Part shown: piece by piece, positions 1-44,769 of the stretch
Position numbering within the stretch: the first letter of the stretch is position 1
How the letters are laid out: each line of letters starts with the position of its first letter
DNA from: a virus
Strand: one strand, 5' to 3'
IMG/VR virus record: IMGVR_UViG_3300036770_004143
Span: 1 to 64,000 of that record
DNA: 64,000 nt
Made by a program: the position numbers and the translations under genes
Notes under the pieces: generated by a model
What the model saw: the letters and a program-made list of their open reading frames with translations, nothing else
Databases searched by the model: none
What the model was told of the DNA's origin: nothing

Positions 1-238
1 AACAACTAATAGGTAATCCTTTTTCTTTACCAAAATTAATCCAGACTGGTGTTGATAGGCTGTAAAAACCCCTTGCCATATAATCTTCAAACTTAATAGC
101 AAACCCATCAATTTTTAAATATTCTTCCGCTTTATTTGCAATATCTTTAATCCTTTGCTCGGGGGTTTCATTTATATACCCCCTTGATAAGAAAAGCCTA
201 CTCTCATCATTTAACCAATAATATTTTTCTTTATTCAT
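1..238 (-). CDS. nrdA: Ribonucleotide reductase large subunit, N-terminal part (partial)
   Basis: Reading the minus strand from an ATG at 236-238 gives 79 residues that run off the window edge. They include LSTPVWINFGKEKGLPISC, the class I RNR large-subunit region around the first active-site cysteine (the final C of LPISC). The enzyme reduces ribonucleoside diphosphates to deoxy forms for DNA synthesis. The ORF begins just after the nrdB-like gene's 3' end (11 bp gap), so the order on the minus strand is nrdB then nrdA, as a reductase operon. The N-terminus has no obvious ATP-cone, so allosteric activity control may be absent; that is an inference from the short stretch before the STP motif. 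The rest of the gene lies outside the window. Confidence 0.85.
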   Translation of the reverse strand, partial: MNKEKYYWLNDESRLFLSRGYINETPEQRIKDIANKAEEYLKIDGFAIKFEDYMARGFYSLSTPVWINFGKEKGLPISC

Positions 239-249
239 TTTTTTGTTTT

Positions 250-1956
250 TTAAAATAAATCATCTTCTGTTATGCTCTTGCTCTTTTTATTATAATCAAC
301 TGATTTCTTATAAAAAAAATCTCCCTCCTTTGTTGATAAAATCTCCACATCAAACCATAATGTCTTCTCAATCTCTGTAAAATCAACTTCAAATACTGAT
401 TTCATCCCAATTCTATTTAATGAATTATTAAATCTATTTTGAATGAAATGTTTAATTGTATCTTTTGATAAAAAACTTAATTCACCATTCTCAAATATCC
501 AATCCAATATTCCACATTCAGCTGCATATGCTTTATGACAAGCTGACACAATCAACGCTTCAAATTCTTCGTCAAACCATTCTGGATTTTCTTCTTTGAT
601 AATGTTGATAAGTTCTGATCCAAAATTACCATGGATTTCTTCCTCCTTTGAGGTAGCTTCAACCACATTTGAAATACCTTTGAATAGATTTTTCTCCTTG
701 TTGAAGGACATCATAATCAAGAACTGACTAAATAAACTTACATGTTCAATAAACAAGGAAAATAATAATACAGACTTTGTGTACATTTTATTCTCTTTAC
801 TCCTTGTCCCATCTAAATATTTTGCCAAATAACTGATTCTATTCTTTATAGCAGGAATTTCAATAACAGTCTGGAACTCATTCTCCAATCCAAGAATTCT
901 TAATAATTGAGCATAAGCATCCTTATGACGAACTTCCGAGTTTCCTGAAATTAAAACTTTGTCATTATATCTAGTCACAATACATCCAGTAGGAACTGTA
1001 ACACAATAGATGTTACCATCATAATCTTCAATGGTAGGTTTATCAGTTATAGAAGAAAAGGTGTTAGTTTTTACAAAACTTACATTGTATATATCTTTAT
1101 CATTAGTTATATCAACTACATACCCAGCAAAAATACCTATAACTTGCAAATTATCTGCAAACAATTTACTAATAGTTTGGTGTTTAATAACATAATCACC
1201 ATTCTGAGTGTCACTATCAAGTTTAGACCCCTCCAATTTTGTTAATTCATAAATAAAAGAATTGCACCACTTTTCAGATTTATCTGATAAATCAATACAA
1301 TCAAAGTTTCCAATATTAATTTTATCATCCAAACTCAACTCATCCACACCCTCATTAACAAATTTACCAGAAAAAGGCAATTTCATATCACTACTAAATT
1401 TACCAATATCTTTTATAGCCTTCTTTATAATATTACCACTCCTTGTTTTGTAGTAGATATTATGGTTGGGGGTTAGTAATGCATTATATGTTTGGTTCTC
1501 AATCCTATGCATCTTTCCCTTGTAAGGTTCATTGATAATATTACTTGGTAAAACAGATGTCATTGTATTGGTTTCTAAATCATATTGAATAACCTCTGTA
1601 TTATTATCAATATCCTTAAAGTTAACCCAACCTTTTGGTGTTAATATTTCAGTTCCCTCACCATGACATTCGGCAAAAGTCATACCAACATCACCAATTT
1701 CAGTTATTGGCATCCTCTTATACAAGTCAGCCCAGAATGTTTTTACATTTACCTCAATTTGAGCAATTGCCAACATTGACCTTTTAATAACCTCCCTCTC
1801 CTCATTTGATATCTTTGTTTTATAATCATCAATATCAGTTGTGAAATTGAATTCAGAGTGTATCCAGTATGAGTGTCTAATTGCATCCTTATATGCTAAT
1901 AAGGATGGATATTCATAAGGCAAAATGTTTATCCTCTTTTCAAAAATGTTCTTCAT
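250..1956 (-). CDS. nrdB: Ribonucleotide reductase small subunit containing an in-frame intein
   Basis: The 568-aa product is a 325-aa class I R2 subunit (residues 1-96 and 340-568) interrupted by a 243-aa intein at residues 97-339. R2 makes the tyrosyl radical used by NrdA. In the extein the first EXXH diiron motif is EVRH (341-344), followed four residues later by Y348, which aligns with the radical tyrosine. FIEHVSL carries another ligand and EEEIHGNF holds the second EXXH. The intein sits immediately before the first EXXH, so the unspliced protein cannot form the metal site. The 325-aa extein length is like the short R2 proteins of Bacteroidetes. The start ATG at 1956 gives MKNIFEKRIN; a partial ATATTTAT motif lies upstream. 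nrdA follows. Confidence 0.9.
   Translation of the reverse strand: MKNIFEKRINILPYEYPSLLAYKDAIRHSYWIHSEFNFTTDIDDYKTKISNEEREVIKRSMLAIAQIEVNVKTFWADLYKRMPITEIGDVGMTFAECHGEGTEILTPKGWVNFKDIDNNTEVIQYDLETNTMTSVLPSNIINEPYKGKMHRIENQTYNALLTPNHNIYYKTRSGNIIKKAIKDIGKFSSDMKLPFSGKFVNEGVDELSLDDKINIGNFDCIDLSDKSEKWCNSFIYELTKLEGSKLDSDTQNGDYVIKHQTISKLFADNLQVIGIFAGYVVDITNDKDIYNVSFVKTNTFSSITDKPTIEDYDGNIYCVTVPTGCIVTRYNDKVLISGNSEVRHKDAYAQLLRILGLENEFQTVIEIPAIKNRISYLAKYLDGTRSKENKMYTKSVLLFSLFIEHVSLFSQFLIMMSFNKEKNLFKGISNVVEATSKEEEIHGNFGSELINIIKEENPEWFDEEFEALIVSACHKAYAAECGILDWIFENGELSFLSKDTIKHFIQNRFNNSLNRIGMKSVFEVDFTEIEKTLWFDVEILSTKEGDFFYKKSVDYNKKSKSITEDDLF
940..1668 (-). other. NrdB intein (cis-splicing, 243 aa)
   Basis: The intein starts at Cys97 (TGT, 1666-1668) with block A-like CHGEGTEILTPKGW, has block B as TPNHNIYY, and ends VTVPTGCIVTRYNDKVLISGN before Ser340 (codon 937-939) of the C-extein. 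The terminal Asn is preceded by Gly, not the usual His, a variation known in other phage inteins. At 243 aa it is longer than the ~140-aa minimum splicing domain but shorter than inteins with a full LAGLIDADG endonuclease. I see no LAGLIDADG or HNH motif in the ~100-aa middle section, so this is probably a mini-intein with an eroded or unrelated insert. Confidence 0.9.
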
Positions 1957-2033
1957 ATATTTTTTTTTATTGGTTAAGATAAATATGAAACCAGGTTATA
2001 AAAGTATTCAATTTTGATTATAAAATCAAATTT

Positions 2034-2492
2034 TTATAAAAAATTGTCATTGCTATTTTTCTTAACCAATAACTCCTTAATCCTTTCTTTCTTACGTTCC
2101 ACTTGTTGTTCCTCAAACCCTAGGAATGTTGCTGTTGTATCGGTATCAATTTCAAGCATTTCATTATCAAACTTGCAATTCTCAAACACAATACCATCTT
2201 TACCAATCCTTGACTTGGTTATTGCCACAGTTGCCAAATTCATCTCTTTCTGTTGCAAACTCTTTGCAATACTAATAATAACATGGCCAACCTGGGCTTT
2301 CTTTATTGACCCCCCCATTTGGTCATTTGTTACCACATTTGCAGAAATAGATGAGTTGTGTGTGTAAATGTCATTGGCATAAAACATATGGGTGTCATCA
2401 ACAGTAATGTCAATTGTATCCTCTTCACCTACCAATTCAATTGATTCAATTTCATCTAAAATAAAATCATTCTTGTTTAAAATTTGTTCCAT
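2034..2492 (-). CDS. gp41-like replicative helicase, C-terminal half with C-intein
   Basis: The 152-aa product has a 46-aa split-intein C-fragment (residues 1-46, ending MFYANDIYTHN) followed by a 106-aa C-extein starting SSISAN. The extein continues as the end of a DnaB/gp41 RecA-like helicase domain (VGHVIISIAKSLQQKEMNLA, then TKSRIGKDG). It would be joined by protein trans-splicing to the N-terminal half encoded at 3757-5082, giving a 457-aa helicase, close to T4 gp41 (475 aa). The C-intein resembles the characterised gp41-8 split intein in pattern (DEIESIELVGEEDTIDI). The start codon lies inside the 3' end of the endonuclease gene (26-bp overlap in another frame), so translation is probably coupled. 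Confidence 0.9.
   Translation of the reverse strand: MEQILNKNDFILDEIESIELVGEEDTIDITVDDTHMFYANDIYTHNSSISANVVTNDQMGGSIKKAQVGHVIISIAKSLQQKEMNLATVAITKSRIGKDGIVFENCKFDNEMLEIDTDTTATFLGFEEQQVERKKERIKELLVKKNSNDNFL
2355..2492 (-). other. Split intein, C-terminal fragment (Int-C)
   Basis: Forty-six residues, with block F/G ending in His-Asn (AAC codon at 2355-2357) and Ser as the +1 extein residue. The fragment begins with its own ATG and is a free N-terminus, which distinguishes a natural split intein from a frameshifted contiguous one. Confidence 0.9.
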
Positions 2493-3699
2493 TTTTTAAA
2501 AAATTTAAGCAGTTATTTATTACAAAATCTTTATTACTCATATATTCAGATTCCTTGACCCTTTTAACAATATAACCTTTTTTAACCAAAAAATCATCTC
2601 TATTGCTATCTATCTTTTTTTGTTCATCTTTTGAATGCCAGTAATCCCCATCAAATTCTATTATTTTATTACCTAATTTAAAATCAACACTTATTATAGT
2701 CATATTATTCTCCCAAACATAAAAAACATACTCATTATTTAGTTCGTAAAAATAACAATTTAACCTATCATCATTTTCTAATTTAGAAAAAATACCCCAA
2801 AATAAATCTTGTGAAATTTTTGAATACTTATCTTTGAATACAGAGATTTTTGCCATCAAAAATTCTTTATACTTAATCTCCCCATCAAATTCCCCGTATT
2901 TTTCAATAAAAAATTCTTTGCTTTGTGAAAATTTTATCTTGGATATAAAGTCATCATATCTAATTTTACCATCAATATCACCATATCTATCTATAAATGA
3001 GTTTAAAGTTGTTTTAACCATACTAACACAATACTCATTCCAAAATTTCAACCCCTCTGTCTCCCCATGTTTATCAATATAATATGTCAAACTAAACCTA
3101 TATGATTGCCTTTGATTCCTATCATACCATTTCTTATAACCTAATTCAACACCATATCTATTTTGATATTCAGGTAATGTCCTCCCATTCCTATATGGTC
3201 TAATTTTTTTGTTTTTAGCCATAGTTGCAATTTTGGAATTTAATGTGTTTTCCCATCTTTTTCTACCCTCTTCTTCGCCATATCTCTCTATTGCTGGTTT
3301 TAAGCCATATGAAACAGCTTTTTTATTTCTTTGTTCCCATTTTTTTGTGCCAAGATCAATTCCATATTTTTTTATAAAGTTATTTTTATCCATCTTAACT
3401 TTATCTTTATATTCATCTTGTTTTATTTTCCAATTATCCCCGTATCTTATTTTACAAGCATACTCACTAATGGCATCATTTTTTAACTTTCTAACAATAA
3501 CACCTAACCTACCTAACCATTTAGATTCAACATTGTTTAATATGAAATCACTTATATTTAGTAATCTATTTTTTATAGAATTAGTATCATAATATTCTAT
3601 AATTTTATAAATTTCACAATATTGATTTTTAGTTATCAAATGTTTAACTTCTTTAATTTTCTTATAATTAAGAAATTGTTCAATAGTAATTACCCCCAT
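2467..3699 (-). CDS. Free-standing Vsr-like homing endonuclease in the fractured helicase gene
   Basis: The 410-aa protein has six degenerate repeats of the form (K/R)YGxxxGxxKWxxR between about residues 110 and 285 (for example KYGIDLGTKKWEQR and RYGVELGYKKWYDR), probably a repeated DNA-binding module. It ends in a nuclease core with VDFKLGNKIIEFDGDYWH, then RDDFLVKKGYIVKRVKESE. That core matches the EDxHD/Vsr-like nucleases known in fractured phage genes. It lies between the two half-genes of the helicase and is presumably the element that spread or fixed the split. Its ATG (3697-3699) is buried in one arm of an 11-bp inverted repeat. Its 3' end overlaps the C-half gene by 26 bp. Target specificity cannot be read from the sequence. 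Confidence 0.8.
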   Translation of the reverse strand: MGVITIEQFLNYKKIKEVKHLITKNQYCEIYKIIEYYDTNSIKNRLLNISDFILNNVESKWLGRLGVIVRKLKNDAISEYACKIRYGDNWKIKQDEYKDKVKMDKNNFIKKYGIDLGTKKWEQRNKKAVSYGLKPAIERYGEEEGRKRWENTLNSKIATMAKNKKIRPYRNGRTLPEYQNRYGVELGYKKWYDRNQRQSYRFSLTYYIDKHGETEGLKFWNEYCVSMVKTTLNSFIDRYGDIDGKIRYDDFISKIKFSQSKEFFIEKYGEFDGEIKYKEFLMAKISVFKDKYSKISQDLFWGIFSKLENDDRLNCYFYELNNEYVFYVWENNMTIISVDFKLGNKIIEFDGDYWHSKDEQKKIDSNRDDFLVKKGYIVKRVKESEYMSNKDFVINNCLNFLKNGTNFKQE

Positions 3700-3751
3700 C
3701 TAATTTTATTTTAATATAAATATCACAAATGTTAAATAAGTTAGATGGGGG
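3693..3751 (-). promoter_or_regulatory. Hairpin sequestering the endonuclease start codon
   Basis: An 11-bp perfect inverted repeat, CCCCCATCTAA at 3693-3703 and TTAGATGGGGG at 3741-3751, is separated by 37 nt. In minus-strand mRNA coming from the helicase half-gene, the 3' arm contains the endonuclease AUG and would be paired. The candidate phage promoter motif at 3714-3723 lies in the loop, so a transcript starting there would lack the 5' arm and leave the AUG free. Confidence 0.75.
3714..3723 (-). promoter_or_regulatory. Candidate phage late promoter motif (endonuclease)
   Basis: The minus strand reads ATATTTATAT, 14 nt before the endonuclease ATG and inside the loop of the start-codon hairpin. 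The same 10-mer, in the same orientation, precedes several other genes in the window. Confidence 0.5.
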
Positions 3752-3756
3752 CACAA

Positions 3757-5082
3757 TTATTTTTTAATAAAAAGTGTATTACCAACAGACAATCCACTGT
3801 CAATGGATAAGAAACCCCCACCTAATGTTGGAAATTTGTGTTTTGCTGACACTTTTATTTCCTTTCCATTTTTTGTCTTAATTCTATAAACAGGCTGTTT
3901 CTCAATAGGGAATACATAACTAATTTCTTTATATCCTTTATGTGTTAGAATATTATCTCCAACAACAACATCCTTTATTTGAATCAATCCTTTATTCTCA
4001 ATATCCACAATAGTATCTAAAGAAACACAGCGATTTCCTTGTGTACCTAACCATCCAGCAATATTTAATTCATGACACATAGCCTCAAAGTGTCTAATAA
4101 CTGATCCTTCATTCTTCCACTCATCATTACCTTGTCTATCTGGAACAACACAATCAATATAATCCAAAACAACCAAATCAAGTTTAATACCATCAGCAAT
4201 AATCTTTCTAATTTGATTCTTAATTTGATTCATTGTCAATGTGTCAGATGGCAATTTCTTTAAAATCAACTTATTTGTATGAGTTTCTTTTATATTATTA
4301 ACAGTTTCATAAACAACATCCTTATGATTTGGTAATTCATCTGGGGATATTTTTGTCCAAAGAGTAATGTGTTTTCTCTGAATAATTTTTGGATTATCTT
4401 CAAAAAAGATATGTAGAACATTATAATTGTTATTGAATGCTGTGTTTGCAACCAAGGTCAATAGAGTTGATTTACCAATACCTGGACCTGCAAATATAAT
4501 ACCAACCTCACCTTTGGCTAACCCCCCCTTTAAGAGAACGTCTATGCCCTTTACACCCATTGGTATGGGGTGTCTATAATCCTCATCCAATACACCCACC
4601 AAGTCATTAAAAACCTCAAAACCGTTTGATTCCTTAACACCAACTTGCAAGGCATATCTTAATAACTCCTCAAGTTGATCATAAGATTCAAAGTCACCCT
4701 CATTAATGACTTTCTGTGCCTTTTCCAAAACAATCTTAACTTCTTCTTGTTTGCAGAATTTAAGTGCTTTTTCTTGAACAAGTTCAACACCATCTAATGG
4801 CGCTGAACTTATTTTAGTTATAGTGTCAATCACAATCTTCAATGCCAATTCTTGTGATATTTCAGATTTGGCAATCATATTTAGTGTTTCAAAGTTTGGG
4901 GCTGCATCATATTTCTTATGATACTCCTTAATCATTTGTATGATTAACTTAAAATACTTATTCTCAAAATAAGATATTTTAATAAAATCTAATATGGCTC
5001 TTGCAAATTCCTTATCTAAAATAATCTGATTGATTAATTGCAACTGGAACGTCTGACCCAGGTAATCAAAATTCTTTGACAT
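3757..5082 (-). CDS. gp41-like replicative helicase, N-terminal half with N-intein
   Basis: The 441-aa product carries 351 aa of a DnaB/gp41-family helicase and a 90-aa split-intein N-fragment. The Walker A motif is GPGIGKST (around residue 197), Walker B is LVVLDYIDC, and the extein ends WLGTQGNR just before Cys352 (codon 4027-4029). This is the usual position for gp41 split inteins, in the motif H3/QxxR region. The intein N-part begins CVSLDTIVDI and contains VYRIKTKNGKEIKVSAKHKF (block B). It ends at SVGNTLFIKK followed by a stop, so no splicing is possible in cis. The ring helicase unwinds DNA at the fork; activity requires trans-splicing with the product of 2034-2492. Confidence 0.92.
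   Translation of the reverse strand: MSKNFDYLGQTFQLQLINQIILDKEFARAILDFIKISYFENKYFKLIIQMIKEYHKKYDAAPNFETLNMIAKSEISQELALKIVIDTITKISSAPLDGVELVQEKALKFCKQEEVKIVLEKAQKVINEGDFESYDQLEELLRYALQVGVKESNGFEVFNDLVGVLDEDYRHPIPMGVKGIDVLLKGGLAKGEVGIIFAGPGIGKSTLLTLVANTAFNNNYNVLHIFFEDNPKIIQRKHITLWTKISPDELPNHKDVVYETVNNIKETHTNKLILKKLPSDTLTMNQIKNQIRKIIADGIKLDLVVLDYIDCVVPDRQGNDEWKNEGSVIRHFEAMCHELNIAGWLGTQGNRCVSLDTIVDIENKGLIQIKDVVVGDNILTHKGYKEISYVFPIEKQPVYRIKTKNGKEIKVSAKHKFPTLGGGFLSIDSGLSVGNTLFIKK
3760..4029 (-). other. Split intein, N-terminal fragment (Int-N)
   Basis: Ninety residues starting with the nucleophilic Cys. The SAKHKFPT block B and the SGLSVGNTLF end closely parallel the known gp41-8 N-intein. A stop codon follows directly. 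Confidence 0.9.
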
Positions 5083-5093
5083 AAAAATAAAGA

Positions 5094-5552
5094 TTAATGG
5101 TTAGATAATAAATTTTTCTCTAAATACTGATGTGTTAAGTTTTGGTTGATTAGGATATTTGTCAAATCCTTCAATGAATCTTTAATGAAATGGCGAATAT
5201 CAACAGTATATCTAACCTTTGGTGGATATAACTTCCCATCAACTATTCTATGGGATACAACTTGGTCTCCAATTTTTACATAAATGTTGAATAATTCAGC
5301 TTCATCTGTTGATGAGGTCTCCATAATTGAAGGGTCATACAAAATACTCTCTTTGTTCTCAACAAGATACCCAATTGATTTCATCTTTAAGTATTGTGTC
5401 AAATCCTCTGAAAAATACTTGACAAACTCATAGAGTTCAAAAGAATCCTTAGCATCAGGATTGATACCCTTAATGTTTAAAAACCTCTGAACAATAATGT
5501 TGTTGTTCAATGTTAGCAAAAACTCCACCTTTGTTGTTTCACTCTGTCTCAT
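5094..5552 (-). CDS. Conserved replication-region protein of unknown function
   Basis: A 152-aa protein, not recognised. It is predicted soluble, of mixed charge, with no signal peptide or membrane segment. It lies in the replication operon, 11 bp before the helicase N-half and 17 bp after RNase H. The equivalent place in other T4-like genomes is variable. The reading frame is supported by its position in a tight same-strand operon and by normal amino-acid composition. The C-terminal part is rich in Ile, Leu and Asn and may form helices (HFIKDSLKDLTNILINQ). Confidence 0.6.
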   Translation of the reverse strand: MRQSETTKVEFLLTLNNNIIVQRFLNIKGINPDAKDSFELYEFVKYFSEDLTQYLKMKSIGYLVENKESILYDPSIMETSSTDEAELFNIYVKIGDQVVSHRIVDGKLYPPKVRYTVDIRHFIKDSLKDLTNILINQNLTHQYLEKNLLSNH

Positions 5553-5569
5553 AATAGTTTTTTTTGTTG

Positions 5570-6568
5570 TTAAAATTTTTTCTCTTTTCTACTTAATTTC
5601 ATAAATGGCTTAACAAAATCAACCCAAGCATCATCCCTTTTTGGTAAGAATTTAAAAAACCCATCATCCCTCATTAACTTCAATAAGTTTGTATAACTCC
5701 TATCAGTTGGGTCTAATCTCTCACTATAAATTTCATAAACCATTGTCTTGCCTTCATCTGTGATTAACGGATTTCTTAAATCAATTATTTTTCCTGTCTT
5801 CTCAAAAAACTCATCCCCAACCAAACCAGATTTGCTAATTCCAGATAATAGATTACTCAATGTCTTGCTCTTTGTTTTTTCAAACAATACTTTTGCCTCA
5901 TCTAAAACTTCTTGTAAGGTATAATCTCTCTTATCAAAATTAGGAAAAAATGTCTTTAATTTCTTCTCACCAAAATTTGTGATGCCATAAATGTTGTCAG
6001 ATGTATCACCAATCAATACTTTGTAAAGATAAACATTATTATGCGGAATATCAATGTTTTTGAAATGAATTAAATCCCCTTTTTTGGAATATGTTTTTGA
6101 TACAGGGGAAAATAACATAACATTCTCACCAATCAACTGGGTCAAATCCTTATCCCCAGAAAAAATAATCATATTCTCATCCTTTGCAATATGAGTGTAT
6201 TGTGCAATCAAATCATCTGCCTCATTTTGGTCAACTTGGCATTGTCTTACAAAAACTTCCTCAAGATATTCTTTAACCCTTTCCCTTTGGTATAGGTAAG
6301 ATTCATATTTATGATCATCCAAAGAAATTCTACGATTCTCTTTGTATCTTGGATAGATGTTTTTTCTTATTAGTGAGTTTTCATTCCCATCCCAGAATAC
6401 AACAACTTTATCATGATTATGTTTCTCAAGAAATAATCTAATTGTATTTAGAAAATGGAAAACCCCACCAATATGTTTGCCTTCAGAATAAAATTCACGA
6501 ACGCCATGAAAACCAATTGTAAATAAATTGTTTCCATCTATTAGTAGGGTTTTCTTCATATTATTCAA
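5570..6568 (-). CDS. rnh: RNase H / 5'-3' exonuclease of the FEN family
   Basis: The 332-aa protein is of T4 RNase H type and removes RNA primers and flaps during lagging-strand synthesis. It starts with the metal-site motif LLIDGNNLF, then VVVFWDGNENSLIRK. It has the acidic pair NEADDLIAQY, the third acidic motif IIFSGDKDLTQLI, and the helix-hairpin-helix entry KVLIGDTSDNIYGI. All core Asp/Glu positions of the PIN/FEN fold are present. Two starts are possible: ATG at 6568, overlapping uvsX by 8 bp, or ATG at 6559, giving MKKTLLIDGNN one base after the uvsX stop. The second begins closer to the conserved domain. It belongs to the uvsX-rnh-helicase operon. Confidence 0.88.
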   Translation of the reverse strand: MNNMKKTLLIDGNNLFTIGFHGVREFYSEGKHIGGVFHFLNTIRLFLEKHNHDKVVVFWDGNENSLIRKNIYPRYKENRRISLDDHKYESYLYQRERVKEYLEEVFVRQCQVDQNEADDLIAQYTHIAKDENMIIFSGDKDLTQLIGENVMLFSPVSKTYSKKGDLIHFKNIDIPHNNVYLYKVLIGDTSDNIYGITNFGEKKLKTFFPNFDKRDYTLQEVLDEAKVLFEKTKSKTLSNLLSGISKSGLVGDEFFEKTGKIIDLRNPLITDEGKTMVYEIYSERLDPTDRSYTNLLKLMRDDGFFKFLPKRDDAWVDFVKPFMKLSRKEKKF

Positions 6569-7565
6569 AAATTATAGTTTCCTCTTCTTCCTTTTCAGAA
6601 AAAGTAATATCCCCATCCCCAGATAAAATACCATTCCAGTATTGAGAATATTCTTTCTTATACTTTTCAATGGATTCCTTTGTATCTGGCAAATAACCTT
6701 GTGGAACCGCCAATATCTTTCCATCTTTATATGCTATACCAGTGACATGGTTCTTCAATATGGATACTTTTGTCCTAATTGCATAGGAAACAGTCCTTCC
6801 ATTCTTTGTTGCTGTTATATGGTTAATACCAGCATTCTTCTGATTTCCAAATAAGAATATTAATGAAGATGCCAACCATAAAGCCTCACCACCTTTTGCT
6901 TTGATTGTTGGTTGTCCAAATGGCGAATCTGGTAATTCTACCCAAGGTTGATTGATTACTACCATTGTGTTATGGTAGGGGTATTCTTCTTTCTTTGATT
7001 TTGAAATCCTTGAATGTAATCCCATTCCAACCTTATCTGCAAGAACTGCTGCATTATGCATTTTACCCCCCTTGCCATCATAAGTCATCTTGCAAGGTAT
7101 TGATCCAATACTATCAATTAAGAATAAAACAGAATATGGTAAATCCCCCTTTTCCTGGGCATCCAGAATCTCATTGATGAAATCTGTCATCTGTTCAATA
7201 TAATCAAATGAATCATTAAAGATAAAATCACCATCCCATTCACCCTCATCATTAAGTTCAGCATTCAATCCCAATTCAACAGCATGGGTCCAATTCCACT
7301 TCTTTTCTGTAATAATGAATATAGGTAAATGACCTTTCTTTTGGGCGTCGGCTGCTGCCAATATCATTGCTGTTGTCTTACTTGTATTGGAATGTCCTAA
7401 GAACATATTAATACCACCCATTACTGGACCAGGAACACCACAAGCATTATAAAAAGCATCACCACATGAATAATAATCCTCTGGTTTATATTTTGTTTTT
7501 GTAGAAAACTTTTCCTTGATAGCATCCACACTGGTTTTTGCTACCTTTTTCTTTATTCCTGCCAT
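6561..7565 (-). CDS. uvsX: UvsX-like RecA-family recombinase
   Basis: A 334-aa strand-exchange protein that coats ssDNA and drives recombination-dependent replication, working with gp32 and the helicase. The Walker A-like motif is GHSNTSKTT (around residue 57). The Walker B region is VLFLIDSIGSI, and MVVINQPWVE plus KAKGGEALWLASSLIF match the L1/L2 area of T4-like UvsX. The C-terminus is strongly acidic (SEKEEEETIIFE), as is common for regulatory tails of recombinases. The start ATG at 7565 follows a long intergenic hairpin; the gene stops 1-8 bp from rnh, suggesting one transcript. Confidence 0.9.
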   Translation of the reverse strand: MAGIKKKVAKTSVDAIKEKFSTKTKYKPEDYYSCGDAFYNACGVPGPVMGGINMFLGHSNTSKTTAMILAAADAQKKGHLPIFIITEKKWNWTHAVELGLNAELNDEGEWDGDFIFNDSFDYIEQMTDFINEILDAQEKGDLPYSVLFLIDSIGSIPCKMTYDGKGGKMHNAAVLADKVGMGLHSRISKSKKEEYPYHNTMVVINQPWVELPDSPFGQPTIKAKGGEALWLASSLIFLFGNQKNAGINHITATKNGRTVSYAIRTKVSILKNHVTGIAYKDGKILAVPQGYLPDTKESIEKYKKEYSQYWNGILSGDGDITFSEKEEEETIIFE

Positions 7566-7582
7566 ATATTTTTTTTGATTTT

Positions 7583-7643
7583 AAAAGAGAGATTTTTTGC
7601 TCAAAGTATTGTTTTATGGTACTTTTTGCAAAAAATCTCTTTT
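7583..7643 (-). promoter_or_regulatory. Long stem-loop between gp32 and uvsX
   Basis: GAGATTTTTTGC (7589-7600) pairs perfectly with GCAAAAAATCTC (7628-7639). The stem extends outwards by AAAAGA/TCTTTT after a 2-nt bulge, and an inner stem AAAGTA/TACTTT (7603-7608 with 7620-7625) closes an 11-nt loop. It lies between the gp32 stop and the uvsX start and could be a partial terminator or an mRNA-stabilising structure that sets gp32 above uvsX levels. Confidence 0.55.
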
Positions 7644-7650
7644 AGGTTAA

Positions 7651-8508
7651 TTAAAATGGTAATTCATCATCACTATACTCCTCTTCAACAACAACACTTG
7701 TTTGTTGAACTGTTGCATTTTTAGCAACAGTTGCCCCACCAAATGATGCCTCTGAATTTGAACTATTCAGATAAACATATTTACCTTGGGAATCATCCCA
7801 TCTTGGGGATTCACCTCTTGAAATTGCTTCAAGATATTCTAATGGTTTCCTGCTATAAACATCTCTCCATGTTGATTCATCATTTGCCCATTTCTTTGCA
7901 AGATTCACATCTGTTGATAATGGTGTTGGGTCATCATACATGATTGTTGAAACAGTTGTGTATTCCTTACCTTTTGGACTTTTTGATTTAACTAATTCAA
8001 TAATTAAATCTCTTCCTGTATCCATATCAGATATATCCCCCTTGTTTCTAAAGATTGGAATAATCTTATCAAGAATACCATCTTTCTTGTAATTGTGCTT
8101 GAACCTCCAATATTTTGGCCCATCTTGTTCATTGTCACGGTCAATTACCTTAACAACATAGAATAATTTGGCTTTATAATCTTTTGCCAATTCGTCATCA
8201 TCCTTTCTCTTTGTTGCTTTTAGTGCATTATACACATCAGCCAATGGAGATGCTTCATTGTCATTTCCTGCTGGGTCATAAATCTTTTGGTAGTAACCAC
8301 CAACTTGTAATTCATGAAACCAAGCCTCCTTAAAAACAGATGACCCATCTGTTGTAGGTAAAATCCTAATCCTTCTTTGCCCTGTACTTTCTTTGTCATT
8401 TAACAATAATGTAAAATAACGTTTCATTCTGTCTTCCTGTGATAATTTTTGGGAATCCCCTTTTTGGTTTTTTTCATACTGCGCCATTATGGCATCTAAA
8501 TTCGACAT
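7651..8508 (-). CDS. gp32-like single-stranded DNA-binding protein
   Basis: About 285 aa from the ATG at 8506-8508 (MSNLDAIMAQYEKN); an upstream in-frame ATG at 8538 would add ten atypical residues. The protein matches T4-like gp32 in layout. It has a basic N-terminal segment, then an OB-fold core with RRIRILPTTDGSS, FKEAWFHELQVGGYYQKIY and PKYWRFKHNYKKD. A Ser/Ala-rich linker follows, and it ends in an acidic tail EEEYSDDELPF that in gp32-type SSBs contacts partner proteins. I do not see the Zn-binding His/Cys cluster of T4 gp32. It binds replication ssDNA and is the first gene of a module followed by uvsX, rnh and the helicase. A terminator lies upstream, so it probably has its own promoter. 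Confidence 0.85.
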   Translation of the reverse strand: MSNLDAIMAQYEKNQKGDSQKLSQEDRMKRYFTLLLNDKESTGQRRIRILPTTDGSSVFKEAWFHELQVGGYYQKIYDPAGNDNEASPLADVYNALKATKRKDDDELAKDYKAKLFYVVKVIDRDNEQDGPKYWRFKHNYKKDGILDKIIPIFRNKGDISDMDTGRDLIIELVKSKSPKGKEYTTVSTIMYDDPTPLSTDVNLAKKWANDESTWRDVYSRKPLEYLEAISRGESPRWDDSQGKYVYLNSSNSEASFGGATVAKNATVQQTSVVVEEEYSDDELPF

Positions 8509-8569
8509 ATTATATAGTTTTTGTTTACAATGCTTCAACTCTACAATGATAGGTAAGTTTAAAGGAAAA

Positions 8570-8593
8570 AAAAAGGGGTGTTACCCCCTTTTT
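8570..8593 (-). terminator. Terminator between gene 8614-9342 and gp32
   Basis: The stem AAAAAGGGG (8570-8578) / CCCCTTTTT closes a short loop (8579-8584) and has T runs on both sides. In the minus direction it follows the stop at 8614 and separates baseplate-region transcription from gp32. Confidence 0.65.
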
Positions 8594-8613
8594 CTAAAAA
8601 AAATATTAATTAC

Positions 8614-9342
8614 TTAAAATCTATTTTTATACCCTTGATTACTATTAAAATCATCATCTTCACCTTCATCATCTGTTGGGAAAAAAGTATCTTTAATCTC
8701 ATTTGGATTAATATTTGTAACATCATCAGATGTCAAAACATATTCATTTTTTCCACTCTTTTCCATTTCAACTTGTTTATCATCAAAAAATTGGGATAAC
8801 TTTTGATTAAAAGGATAAGAATCATATGTCCTTAATTCAAGTTTTTCCTCTGGAGTTTTTTCTCTATATTTTTCCACTTTGGAATCTATGGCATTCAATT
8901 TATCAAAAATACCATCCATTGTTGCCAACTTCTGCTCCAATTTATCAATCTGGGCAAACAAATTATCAAAATATTCATTCTGTTTTGTTTCCATGTTCTT
9001 CTGGCTTGAAACCAAATCTGTAATATCCAATTCTTCTGAATCTTCATCACCTTCTTTACTATCACCCTCATCATCAATAACTGTAACATCATCATCAGCT
9101 TCAACATCTATTGGTTGGGGATTTGCAGCACTTAAAGGGTCTTCACCCCCACCTGGAGGTATTGGAGAAACTTCACCTGGGGGTGTCATAGGTGCATTAG
9201 GCATTGGTGCAGCATTGGGGTCTGACATAGGGTCACCTAAAGGTGGTGGGGGTGCATCCTGCTCTGTAATATACCTATTTATTTTGTGGTATCTATTAAT
9301 TTCATTTAATATTCTCTGATCTATTTTCATTTTATTAATCAT
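8614..9342 (-). CDS. Acidic, proline-rich protein with coiled coil, probably structural
   Basis: A 242-aa protein, not recognised by family. Residues 28-80 are Pro/Gly/Met-rich (APPPPLGDP, PPGEVSPIPPGGG). Residues 80-108 are very acidic. Residues about 110-165 form a likely coiled coil (NLFAQIDKLEQKLATMDGIFDKL), and the C-terminus is acidic again. The N-terminus (MKIDQRILNEINRYHKINRYIT) is a short amphipathic helix of the kind seen on several proteins here. It overlaps the upstream gene by 8 bp, at the end of the baseplate operon and just before a terminator. It could be a scaffold or virion protein; no function can be assigned. Confidence 0.6.
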   Translation of the reverse strand: MINKMKIDQRILNEINRYHKINRYITEQDAPPPPLGDPMSDPNAAPMPNAPMTPPGEVSPIPPGGGEDPLSAANPQPIDVEADDDVTVIDDEGDSKEGDEDSEELDITDLVSSQKNMETKQNEYFDNLFAQIDKLEQKLATMDGIFDKLNAIDSKVEKYREKTPEEKLELRTYDSYPFNQKLSQFFDDKQVEMEKSGKNEYVLTSDDVTNINPNEIKDTFFPTDDEGEDDDFNSNQGYKNRF

Positions 9343-43237: not shown

Positions 43238-43641
43238 CTCCTATATATCTTTCCTTTTATAACTCCAGGTTTTATCATTTCTATTAATTGTTTATTTGTG
43301 TATTTTTTTAATGGTGTGTTATTTATATGTAAATTCCCACCAACTTTCAATCCTTCTGGTAGTGAGGTTATTTTTGAACCCATTAAAAATAAAGCACCTT
43401 CAACTGTTAAATCATTTGGTAATGAGGTTATGTCTGTTAAATATAAATTCAAATAACCACCAACTTTCAATCCTCTTGGTAATGAGGTTATTTTTGAGTA
43501 ATGTAAATTCAAATCACCTTTAACATTTAAATCTTCTTCTATTAATGGTTCATTATTTTTAAATTTCCATAAAAATGGTGCTCTATGCTCTTCCTTCTCT
43601 TCAAGGAAATCAAATATTCTTTTTAGTGCTTGTTTTTCCAT
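43234..43641 (-). CDS. LRR-like repeat protein, family copy 2
   Basis: A 135-aa paralogue with three units. The C-terminal cap (TPLKKYTNKQLIEMIKPGVI) is nearly the same as in copy 3, and its N-terminal segment (RAPFLWKFKNNEPLIEEDLN) is nearly the same as in copy 5, so the gene looks like a mosaic of its neighbours. Confidence 0.75.
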   Translation of the reverse strand: MEKQALKRIFDFLEEKEEHRAPFLWKFKNNEPLIEEDLNVKGDLNLHYSKITSLPRGLKVGGYLNLYLTDITSLPNDLTVEGALFLMGSKITSLPEGLKVGGNLHINNTPLKKYTNKQLIEMIKPGVIKGKIYRR

Positions 43642-44045
43642 TATCTAACTATATCATATTTTATAAATCCAGGTTTAATCATTTCCCTTAATTCTTCACC
43701 TGAATATTTTGTTAATGGTGTTCCATAAATATACAAATCACCCCCAACTTCCAATCCTTTTGGTAATGTTTGTATTGGCAAAAAAGCTAATAGTAAATTA
43801 TTCCCAACTTTCAATCCTTCTGGTAATGTTTCTATATTTAATTGTATTAAATCTAATGTCCCCCCAACTTTCAATCCTTTTGGTAATGAAGTTATGTTTG
43901 TTCCTGATAAATCCAAATTGCCTTTAACATTTAATTCTTCTTCTCTTAATGGTATATCATGCATCAATTTCCATAATAATGGTGGATTACAATTTTCCTT
44001 CTCTTCAAGAAAATCAAATATTATTTTTAGTACAGTATTATCCAT
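43641..44045 (-). CDS. LRR-like repeat protein, family copy 1 (first gene of operon)
   Basis: A 134-aa paralogue from the ATG at 44045 (MDNTVLKIIFDFLEEK), which matches the family start; an upstream ATG at 44102 would run through the divergent promoter. Three repeat units, two of which use TLP in place of SLP. This is the most divergent copy. A candidate late promoter motif lies 17 nt before the start, so it probably heads the 3.9-kb operon. Confidence 0.75.
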   Translation of the reverse strand: MDNTVLKIIFDFLEEKENCNPPLLWKLMHDIPLREEELNVKGNLDLSGTNITSLPKGLKVGGTLDLIQLNIETLPEGLKVGNNLLLAFLPIQTLPKGLEVGGDLYIYGTPLTKYSGEELREMIKPGFIKYDIVR

Positions 44046-44052
44046 TATCTTA

Positions 44053-44071
44053 ATATTTATATTATAAATAT
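44053..44071. promoter_or_regulatory. Divergent pair of candidate phage late promoter motifs
   Basis: The plus strand reads ATATTTATAT at 44053-44062 (17 nt before the SOD ATG at 44080). The minus strand reads ATATTTATA at 44071-44063 (17 nt before the LRR ATG at 44045). The two are back to back in a 34-nt gap, which shows that motif orientation follows gene direction. Confidence 0.6.
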
Positions 44072-44079
44072 AATCTTTT

Positions 44080-44769
44080 ATGAAAATACTGGAAACAATC
44101 AAAGAAGAAATAATATCAAGAATACATAAAGATAATGTTGATTTCTTAATTCAAGAAATGAAAAAAGTTGGCATTGAAAAACTTCCTTATTCATATGCTT
44201 CATTAAAACCTTTTGTTGATGAAAAGACAATGAATATTCATTATAATAAACATTATATTGGTTATGTGGATAAATTGAATAAAGCATTAAAGAACACAAA
44301 ATCAAATGGTGATTTAAAGCAAATCATATCAAATATAAGCAAATATGATGATAAGATTAGGAATAATGCTGGTGGTGCATTTAATCATGCTTTATTCTGG
44401 AATATGTTAACCCCCACCAAAAAGAATGTTCCAAGTGAATTAAAAACAAAAATAAATGCAAGTTTTGGGACATTTAATGCTTTCAAGAAAAAGTTTGAGG
44501 AGGTTGCAAAAGACCATTTTGGATCCGGATGGGTCTGGCTTGTTGCAACCAAAAATAATAGATTAAAAGTAATAAGCACACCAAACCAGGATAATCCCCT
44601 TATGAATGTGATTAAGGATGGGGGTTTTCCAATATTGGGATTGGATTTATGGGAACATGCTTATTATCTAAAATATCAAAACAAAAGGGATGAATATATT
44701 CATAACTTTTGGGATTATGTAAATTGGGATTTTGTTCTTGAATTATATCAAAATGCAAATGATAAGTAG
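44080..44769 (+). CDS. Fe/Mn superoxide dismutase with N-terminal helix extension
   Basis: A 229-aa protein whose residues from about 33 are a complete Fe/Mn SOD: LPYSYASLKPFVDEKTMNIH (first His), NHALFWNM (second His), then FGSGWVWLVATKNNR, and LGLDLWEHAYYLKYQN (Asp and third His). All four metal ligands are present. Family members have about 190-205 aa; the extra N-terminal helix (MKILETIKEEIISRIHKDNV) resembles the short amphipathic segments on other phage proteins here and may target the protein to the virion or scaffold. It may detoxify superoxide in infected cells or after entry. First gene of a plus-strand unit with a neck-type gene. Confidence 0.88.
   Translation: MKILETIKEEIISRIHKDNVDFLIQEMKKVGIEKLPYSYASLKPFVDEKTMNIHYNKHYIGYVDKLNKALKNTKSNGDLKQIISNISKYDDKIRNNAGGAFNHALFWNMLTPTKKNVPSELKTKINASFGTFNAFKKKFEEVAKDHFGSGWVWLVATKNNRLKVISTPNQDNPLMNVIKDGGFPILGLDLWEHAYYLKYQNKRDEYIHNFWDYVNWDFVLELYQNANDK

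Follow-up and report, generated by a model that had tools for sequence, protein, structure and literature searches.

We analysed the first 64,000 nucleotides (hereafter the window; 30.5% GC, 96% coding) of the IMG/VR virus record IMGVR_UViG_3300036770_004143, which stems from a T4-like phage and is 270,075 bp long. In this window, the gene for a gp41/DnaB-like replicative helicase is fractured into two open reading frames (ORFs) that carry the halves of a split intein and have the gene for a free-standing homing endonuclease between them. All three genes lie on the minus strand where the original prediction had placed them, with the N-terminal half at 3757..5082 (441 amino acids, aa), the endonuclease at 2467..3699 (410 aa) and the C-terminal half at 2034..2492 (152 aa). 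The N-terminal ORF comprises helicase residues 1-351, the N-extein (4030..5082; phrog_19 2e-47, PF03796 1e-12), followed by a 90-aa N-intein (Cys1 to Lys90) and a stop codon (3757..4029); the predicted start of this N-intein at Cys352, its length and its coordinates were all correct. The C-terminal ORF begins with a 46-aa C-intein (2355..2492) ending in His-Asn before a serine, again as foreseen. The C-extein (2034..2354, including the stop codon) starts with Ser-Ser-Ile and supplies helicase residues 352-457, which gives the anticipated product of 457 aa (351 + 106 aa). In empty alleles, such as that of locus L094, it is contiguous with the N-extein. The helicase halves are in different reading frames, and the endonuclease ORF overlaps the C-terminal ORF by 26 bp, the first 26 bp of the C-intein. 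An assembly error as the source of the split was excluded, as the same gene order was found in independent metagenome contigs (L002, L003, L004/L005, L006 and L007). An Rfam search of window positions 1-9000 matched no known RNA, such as a group I intron.

Both intein halves were recognised above cut-off, the N-intein by the N-terminal intein model TIGR01445 (26.0 bits) and the C-intein by the C-terminal intein model TIGR01443 (27.5 bits); PF14890 was below cut-off on both. The original prediction had proposed an alignment with gp41-1, and among solved structures this split intein was indeed the one closest to the N-intein (6qaz; E = 6e-13, covering N-intein residues 12-89). The two N-inteins are homologous and interrupt the same kind of host gene. 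They differ in that gp41-1 has only moderate identity to the window intein, for which the natural genomic context is seen here.

The endonuclease consists of a helical N-terminal domain, six helix-YG-helix repeats (approximately residues 105-286) and an EDxHD nuclease domain (approximately residues 294-402). Its last 110 residues gave weak matches to domain models, with DUF559 above and MTES_1575 below cut-off. Within the EDxHD set (E323 D339 E348 H355 D364), the residues E323, D339, H355 and D364 showed no variation across 27 homologues, and the gene is under purifying selection (w ~0.2). We obtained an AlphaFold model with a pLDDT of 86 and a pTM of 0.37, in which the packing of the domains is uncertain. 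The predicted fold of the C-terminal domain matched the catalytic domain of I-Bth0305I (3r3p; Foldseek probability 1.00, TM 0.67 by target, E = 0.043), and by sequence alone this match had an E-value of 0.14. The nuclease fold and EDxHD residues are common to both enzymes, whereas the six repeats and the split-intein partner are the window endonuclease's own features. The repeats, one or two of which are missing from some homologues, had no Pfam model and no solved-structure counterpart at E<=0.001, and may form the DNA-binding part. Together, the ORFs, intein models and nuclease fold support the original prediction of a fractured gene with a split gp41-type intein and an EDxHD/Vsr-like endonuclease. 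The prediction was silent on the regulatory spacer, on the fused and endonuclease-less allele states and on recent horizontal movement, which are described below.

The spacer upstream of the endonuclease gene

The spacer between the N-intein and the endonuclease gene can fold into a hairpin on the minus strand. Its 5' arm, CCCCCATCTAA (3751..3741), pairs with a 3' arm, TTAGATGGGGG (3703..3693), which includes the endonuclease ATG and buries it, and the loop holds the motif TATTTATA (3715..3722). We assumed no consensus E. coli-type promoter and tested this motif within the window, where 11 of its 18 copies lie 11-20 nt upstream of ORF starts. The genes behind it include those for the tail sheath and a head-tail adaptor. 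The motif is a predicted late-type promoter, including in its timing, from its analogy to T4 TATAAATA. Two copies stand back to back at window positions 44045-44080, between the divergent ORFs 43641..44045 (minus strand) and 44080..44769 (plus strand).

The predicted folding energy was -22.1 kcal/mol for the read-through RNA, compared to -1.6 for a transcript starting 5-8 nt past the promoter. Hairpin sequences differ widely between lineages (for example L018 and L021), and across 22 lineages pairing of the 5' arm was stronger with the start region of its own lineage than with permuted ones (-12.55 vs -8.52 kcal/mol, 0/20000). We rejected the hairpin as an intrinsic terminator on finding no U-run after the stem, no dedicated terminator scan having been made.

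The start of the spacer carries a further element, TTGTGCCCCCATCTAAC (3740..3756, minus strand). Family-wide, this element looks like the reverse-complemented extein DNA that spans -24..-10 relative to the splice junction (TGG ACN GCN ACN CAA). In the window this extein stretch is TGGTTAGGTACACAA (4039..4053, minus strand), and it may form the left part of a two-part homing site. The best identity between this site copy and the extein, summed over 26 lineages, was 247/390, compared to 185.6 (sd 4.2) in dinucleotide-shuffled spacers (0/1000). Each site copy also fitted its own extein better than those of others (p = 0.0007), and the spacers of L074, L017 and L018 have the best copies. A similar pattern was found at another gene: in five loci with a fractured nrdA and a homologous endonuclease (L038, L042, L045, L046 and L224), the spacer sequence ACN ATT AAR CCT repeats extein -18..-7 in direct orientation (0/5000; offset 18/19 tied best of 288). 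Loci of the terminase large subunit type were too few and too varied for this test. The nrdA spacer of L045 has a 19-bp stem that hides GGAGG, with TATATTTATA in the loop.

Several observations weigh against the hairpin and the operator. The window site copy matches its extein at 10 of 15 positions only, and the argument for an operator is carried by the family. Other in-frame extein offsets also exceeded the shuffles (186-229 vs 247), and the identities of 83, 70 and 34% at the three codon positions were obtained with an extein-derived consensus anchor. The site copy overlaps the 5' hairpin arm, making the two tests not fully independent. Finally, the hairpin was clear, or its self-pairing ranked first, in only about half of the lineages, with no clear hairpin in L009-L012, L022, L184, L206 and L211.

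The spacer features might be due to chance, or be by-products of low GC and a conserved endonuclease start, in which case the locus would be an ordinary fractured gene of the published kind. The base composition of the window would fit this explanation, as would the lineages without a clear hairpin and the spacer-extein similarity of individual loci, which was mostly not significant outside the pooled tests. We nevertheless consider chance unlikely in view of the family-wide shuffle and permutation tests, the repetition of the pattern in the nrdA set and the position of TATTTATA before structural genes. We give similarly little credence to the element acting as a decoy, or as a site of antisense RNA pairing with the helicase mRNA, instead of as a protein operator. 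Its orientation in the helicase loci, reverse-complementary to the extein, would allow pairing within the same transcript. However, the mismatches concentrate in third codon positions, which RNA pairing would tolerate poorly, and the nrdA copy is in direct orientation and unable to pair. The site copy is probably an operator bound by a protein.

Allele states and mobility of the element

Allele states were called by tblastn of the element parts against fetched loci. This revealed five states: empty, split with endonuclease, split with an endonuclease remnant, split without endonuclease, and fused, with a one-piece intein of 129-132 aa. Among helicases that are >90% identical to that of the window at the protein level, empty, split endonuclease-containing and fused alleles (the last with 129-aa mini-inteins) coexist. 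In more distant relatives the helicase is split and the endonuclease deleted or decayed. The original prediction had suggested looking for an uninterrupted helicase allele, and dozens of empty alleles were found. They include 26 unique alleles at >90% identity that are uninterrupted at the same codon, and the N-extein of empty alleles is 91-98% identical to that of the window at the protein level. Different states also occurred within one sample, as 3300009164 has both L006 (split) and L120 (empty), and 3300027734 has both L091 (fused) and L097 (empty).

We compared the element with its host gene by synonymous divergence (dS). Between the window and L006, dS was 0.77 in the N-extein, 0.097 in the endonuclease and 0.091 in the N-intein. 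The values for L007 were 0.91 in the N-extein and 0.12 in the endonuclease, and those for the fused L085 were 0.75 (N-extein) and 0.13 (intein core). Judged by dS, the element is approximately 8-fold younger than its host gene (0.10 vs 0.77). The pattern is reversed in L009, where the extein is 98% identical (protein) and the endonuclease 67%, a second lineage at the same site. To the right of the junction, TCATCTAT was present in 12/12 unique occupied alleles and 0/26 empty alleles, and the excess similarity was limited to the first 30 nt. Homing with short co-conversion leaves this kind of signature. Because the element is younger than its host gene and TCATCTAT occurs in all occupied but no empty alleles, we infer that the element homes. 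The dS contrast and the co-conversion mark support homing by predicted cleavage of the empty allele.

Deletion of the endonuclease was visible in two pairs of closely related loci. L207 lacks ~1.19 kb relative to L208, to which it is 98.5-98.8% identical over 7 kb, and L047 lacks ~0.94 kb of the endonuclease gene relative to L015, the pair being 98-99% identical. In L188 and L191, the N-intein stop overlaps the C-intein start (TAATG, ATGA), one indel short of fusion. The endonuclease frame is broken in L032 and L034 (longest ORF 148 and 244 aa, respectively), which may reflect early decay or sequencing error.

In the intein trees, which are unrooted, all deep lineages are split and fused inteins appear in three places. 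A single fused clade was rejected on the DNA of the close group (approximately unbiased (AU) test, p = 0.0007), and the linkers of the three fused types differ (KDKNNIF, KNTNIIL and KNNTTTYDYLEDLV). Since fused forms nest inside split ones, it appears that split inteins can heal back to cis, and these data are best read as two or more split-to-cis fusions, with the root and gene conversion as caveats. Two points count against it: the AU test on the wider protein tree failed to reject a single fused clade (p = 0.27), and gene conversion between alleles could disturb the trees. Conversely, one-piece mini-inteins might be ancestral and have been split several times independently by the endonuclease cassette. 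This would agree with the usual view, in which inteins change from cis to split, and with the presence of both forms at high identity, and the unrooted trees and indecisive protein AU test leave room for it. It is an improbable history, however, as the deep lineages are all split, endonuclease deletions are seen directly and the three fused types carry different linkers. Moreover, the distances of the endonuclease correlate with those of the intein at 0.92, which would be expected if both are inherited as a unit, and repeated insertion at the same codon with the same regulatory spacer is unlikely. Repeated fusion of split inteins remains our preferred reading.

Proposed mechanism and relation to known systems

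Taken together, the locus is likely to be a mobile fractured-gene element that combines trans-splicing, homing, late control of the endonuclease, endonuclease loss and fusion. Each helicase half would be translated on its own, and protein trans-splicing by the split intein would then join the two and preserve the essential helicase. All catalytic residues of the intein are present (Cys1, block B His, the terminal His-Asn and Ser+1). It is very improbable that the halves do not splice, with the phage having another helicase or the halves assembling unspliced: although splicing is predicted here from sequence, the catalytic residues are retained in the homologues except L093 (Tyr1), both intein halves are under purifying selection (w 0.00-0.37) and the split gene is the sole DnaB-family match across the 270-kb record. 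The fused intein at L093:3590, with Tyr replacing Cys1, is predicted to be incapable of normal splicing.

The endonuclease is predicted to cut, at the extein junction, the uninterrupted helicase genes that co-infecting phages carry, after which repair would copy the whole block of N-intein, endonuclease and C-intein into the cut allele. The co-conversion mark would place the cut at the junction or immediately to its right. Early in infection, during helicase transcription, the endonuclease would be off, with its start codon buried in the hairpin of the read-through mRNA. Late in infection, the promoter in the hairpin loop would produce a message without the 5' arm, from which the endonuclease could be translated. 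The element beside the promoter, which copies the extein half of the putative homing site, probably serves for autorepression by the endonuclease. With time, deletion of the endonuclease would leave a split mini-intein, the halves of which would have fused into a one-piece mini-intein in some lineages. We lean, with less confidence, towards a more general statement about phage split-intein elements, namely that I-TevI-like triple control (late promoter, start-codon hairpin and site-copy operator) of an unrelated EDxHD nuclease operates at more than one target gene and is accompanied by repeated endonuclease loss and fusion to cis, the reverse of the usual direction.

The locus belongs to a known kind, the fractured gene, and no description of its regulatory anatomy and allele series was found in the literature that we searched. 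Dassa et al. reportedly described in 2009 an essential phage gene in two ORFs, with a canonical split intein and a free-standing Vsr-like endonuclease in between. The window locus has the two-ORF host gene, the split intein and the intervening EDxHD endonuclease in common with published fractured genes. It differs from them in being seen within a 270-kb record, in the co-occurrence of empty, fused, split and decayed alleles, and in its spacer with promoter, hairpin and site copy. In the split PolB of Aeromonas phage Aes508/Aes123, a homologous VSR endonuclease likewise lies between the intein halves. There the host gene is PolB and the endonuclease start overlaps the N-intein end, which therefore leaves no regulatory spacer or operator in Aes508.

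The genes of I-TevI, II and III, segB and Aeh1 mobE have a late promoter within a hairpin, which in early read-through mRNA masks the translation start, and those of I-TevI, II and III have an operator resembling the homing site next to the promoter (PMC2988022). The window locus shares the late-type promoter within a start-codon hairpin. Its putative counterpart of the I-TevI, II and III operators is the family-wide site copy, which in helicase loci is in reverse orientation. T4 control involves GIY-YIG or HNH nucleases and group I introns, whereas the window has an unrelated EDxHD nuclease and a split intein. F-CphI of cyanophage S-PM2, a free-standing endonuclease, is partnered by a self-splicing element located at its target, an arrangement termed collaborative homing (PMC6083498). 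This pairing is common to the window locus, but F-CphI is an Endo VII-type nuclease encoded outside the gene, and its partner is a group I intron in psbA. In a literature search that covered few subscription journals and thus provides weak evidence, we found no paper joining fractured genes with T4-style control and no description of natural split-to-cis fusion.

Because matched alleles occur naturally in the empty, one-piece and split states, the last with or without endonuclease, direct tests of homing, of the origin and reversal of split inteins and of the endonuclease target become possible. The putative site-copy operator gives a prediction of what sequence is recognised by this nuclease family, which is uncharacterised and has modular helical repeats. 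It also suggests that a common strategy for remaining harmless until late in infection was either arrived at separately by unrelated nucleases or is shared among them. Intein engineering could also benefit from having cis and split mini-inteins that are closely related.

Related loci and other inteins

Relatives of the endonuclease were also found in fractured nrdA, in terminase large subunit genes with a short N-intein type, in genes for other P-loop ATPases and in PolB genes. In four loci (L070, L076, L078 and L081), a fractured terminase large subunit gene has a very short N-intein, a long C-intein and an endonuclease of the same family. Cultured phages contained distant relatives only (best ~30% identity), and no close gp41 intein was found in them. 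Desulfovibrio phage 7757 (L213), Klebsiella phage KP13-7 (L214) and Vibrio phage VPALA (L216) have apparent fractured genes with related endonucleases, unannotated as such in their records.

Seven loci (L013, L017, L020, L022, L028, L178 and L190) have a second insertion of ~1 kb (0.8-1.1 kb) in the helicase gene near residue 205, just past the P-loop, which is a different intein site. The second intein that the original prediction placed in nrdB of the window (250-1956, minus strand) is real. It is 243 aa long (940..1668), lies between FAE and SEVRH, and ends in SGN instead of HN.

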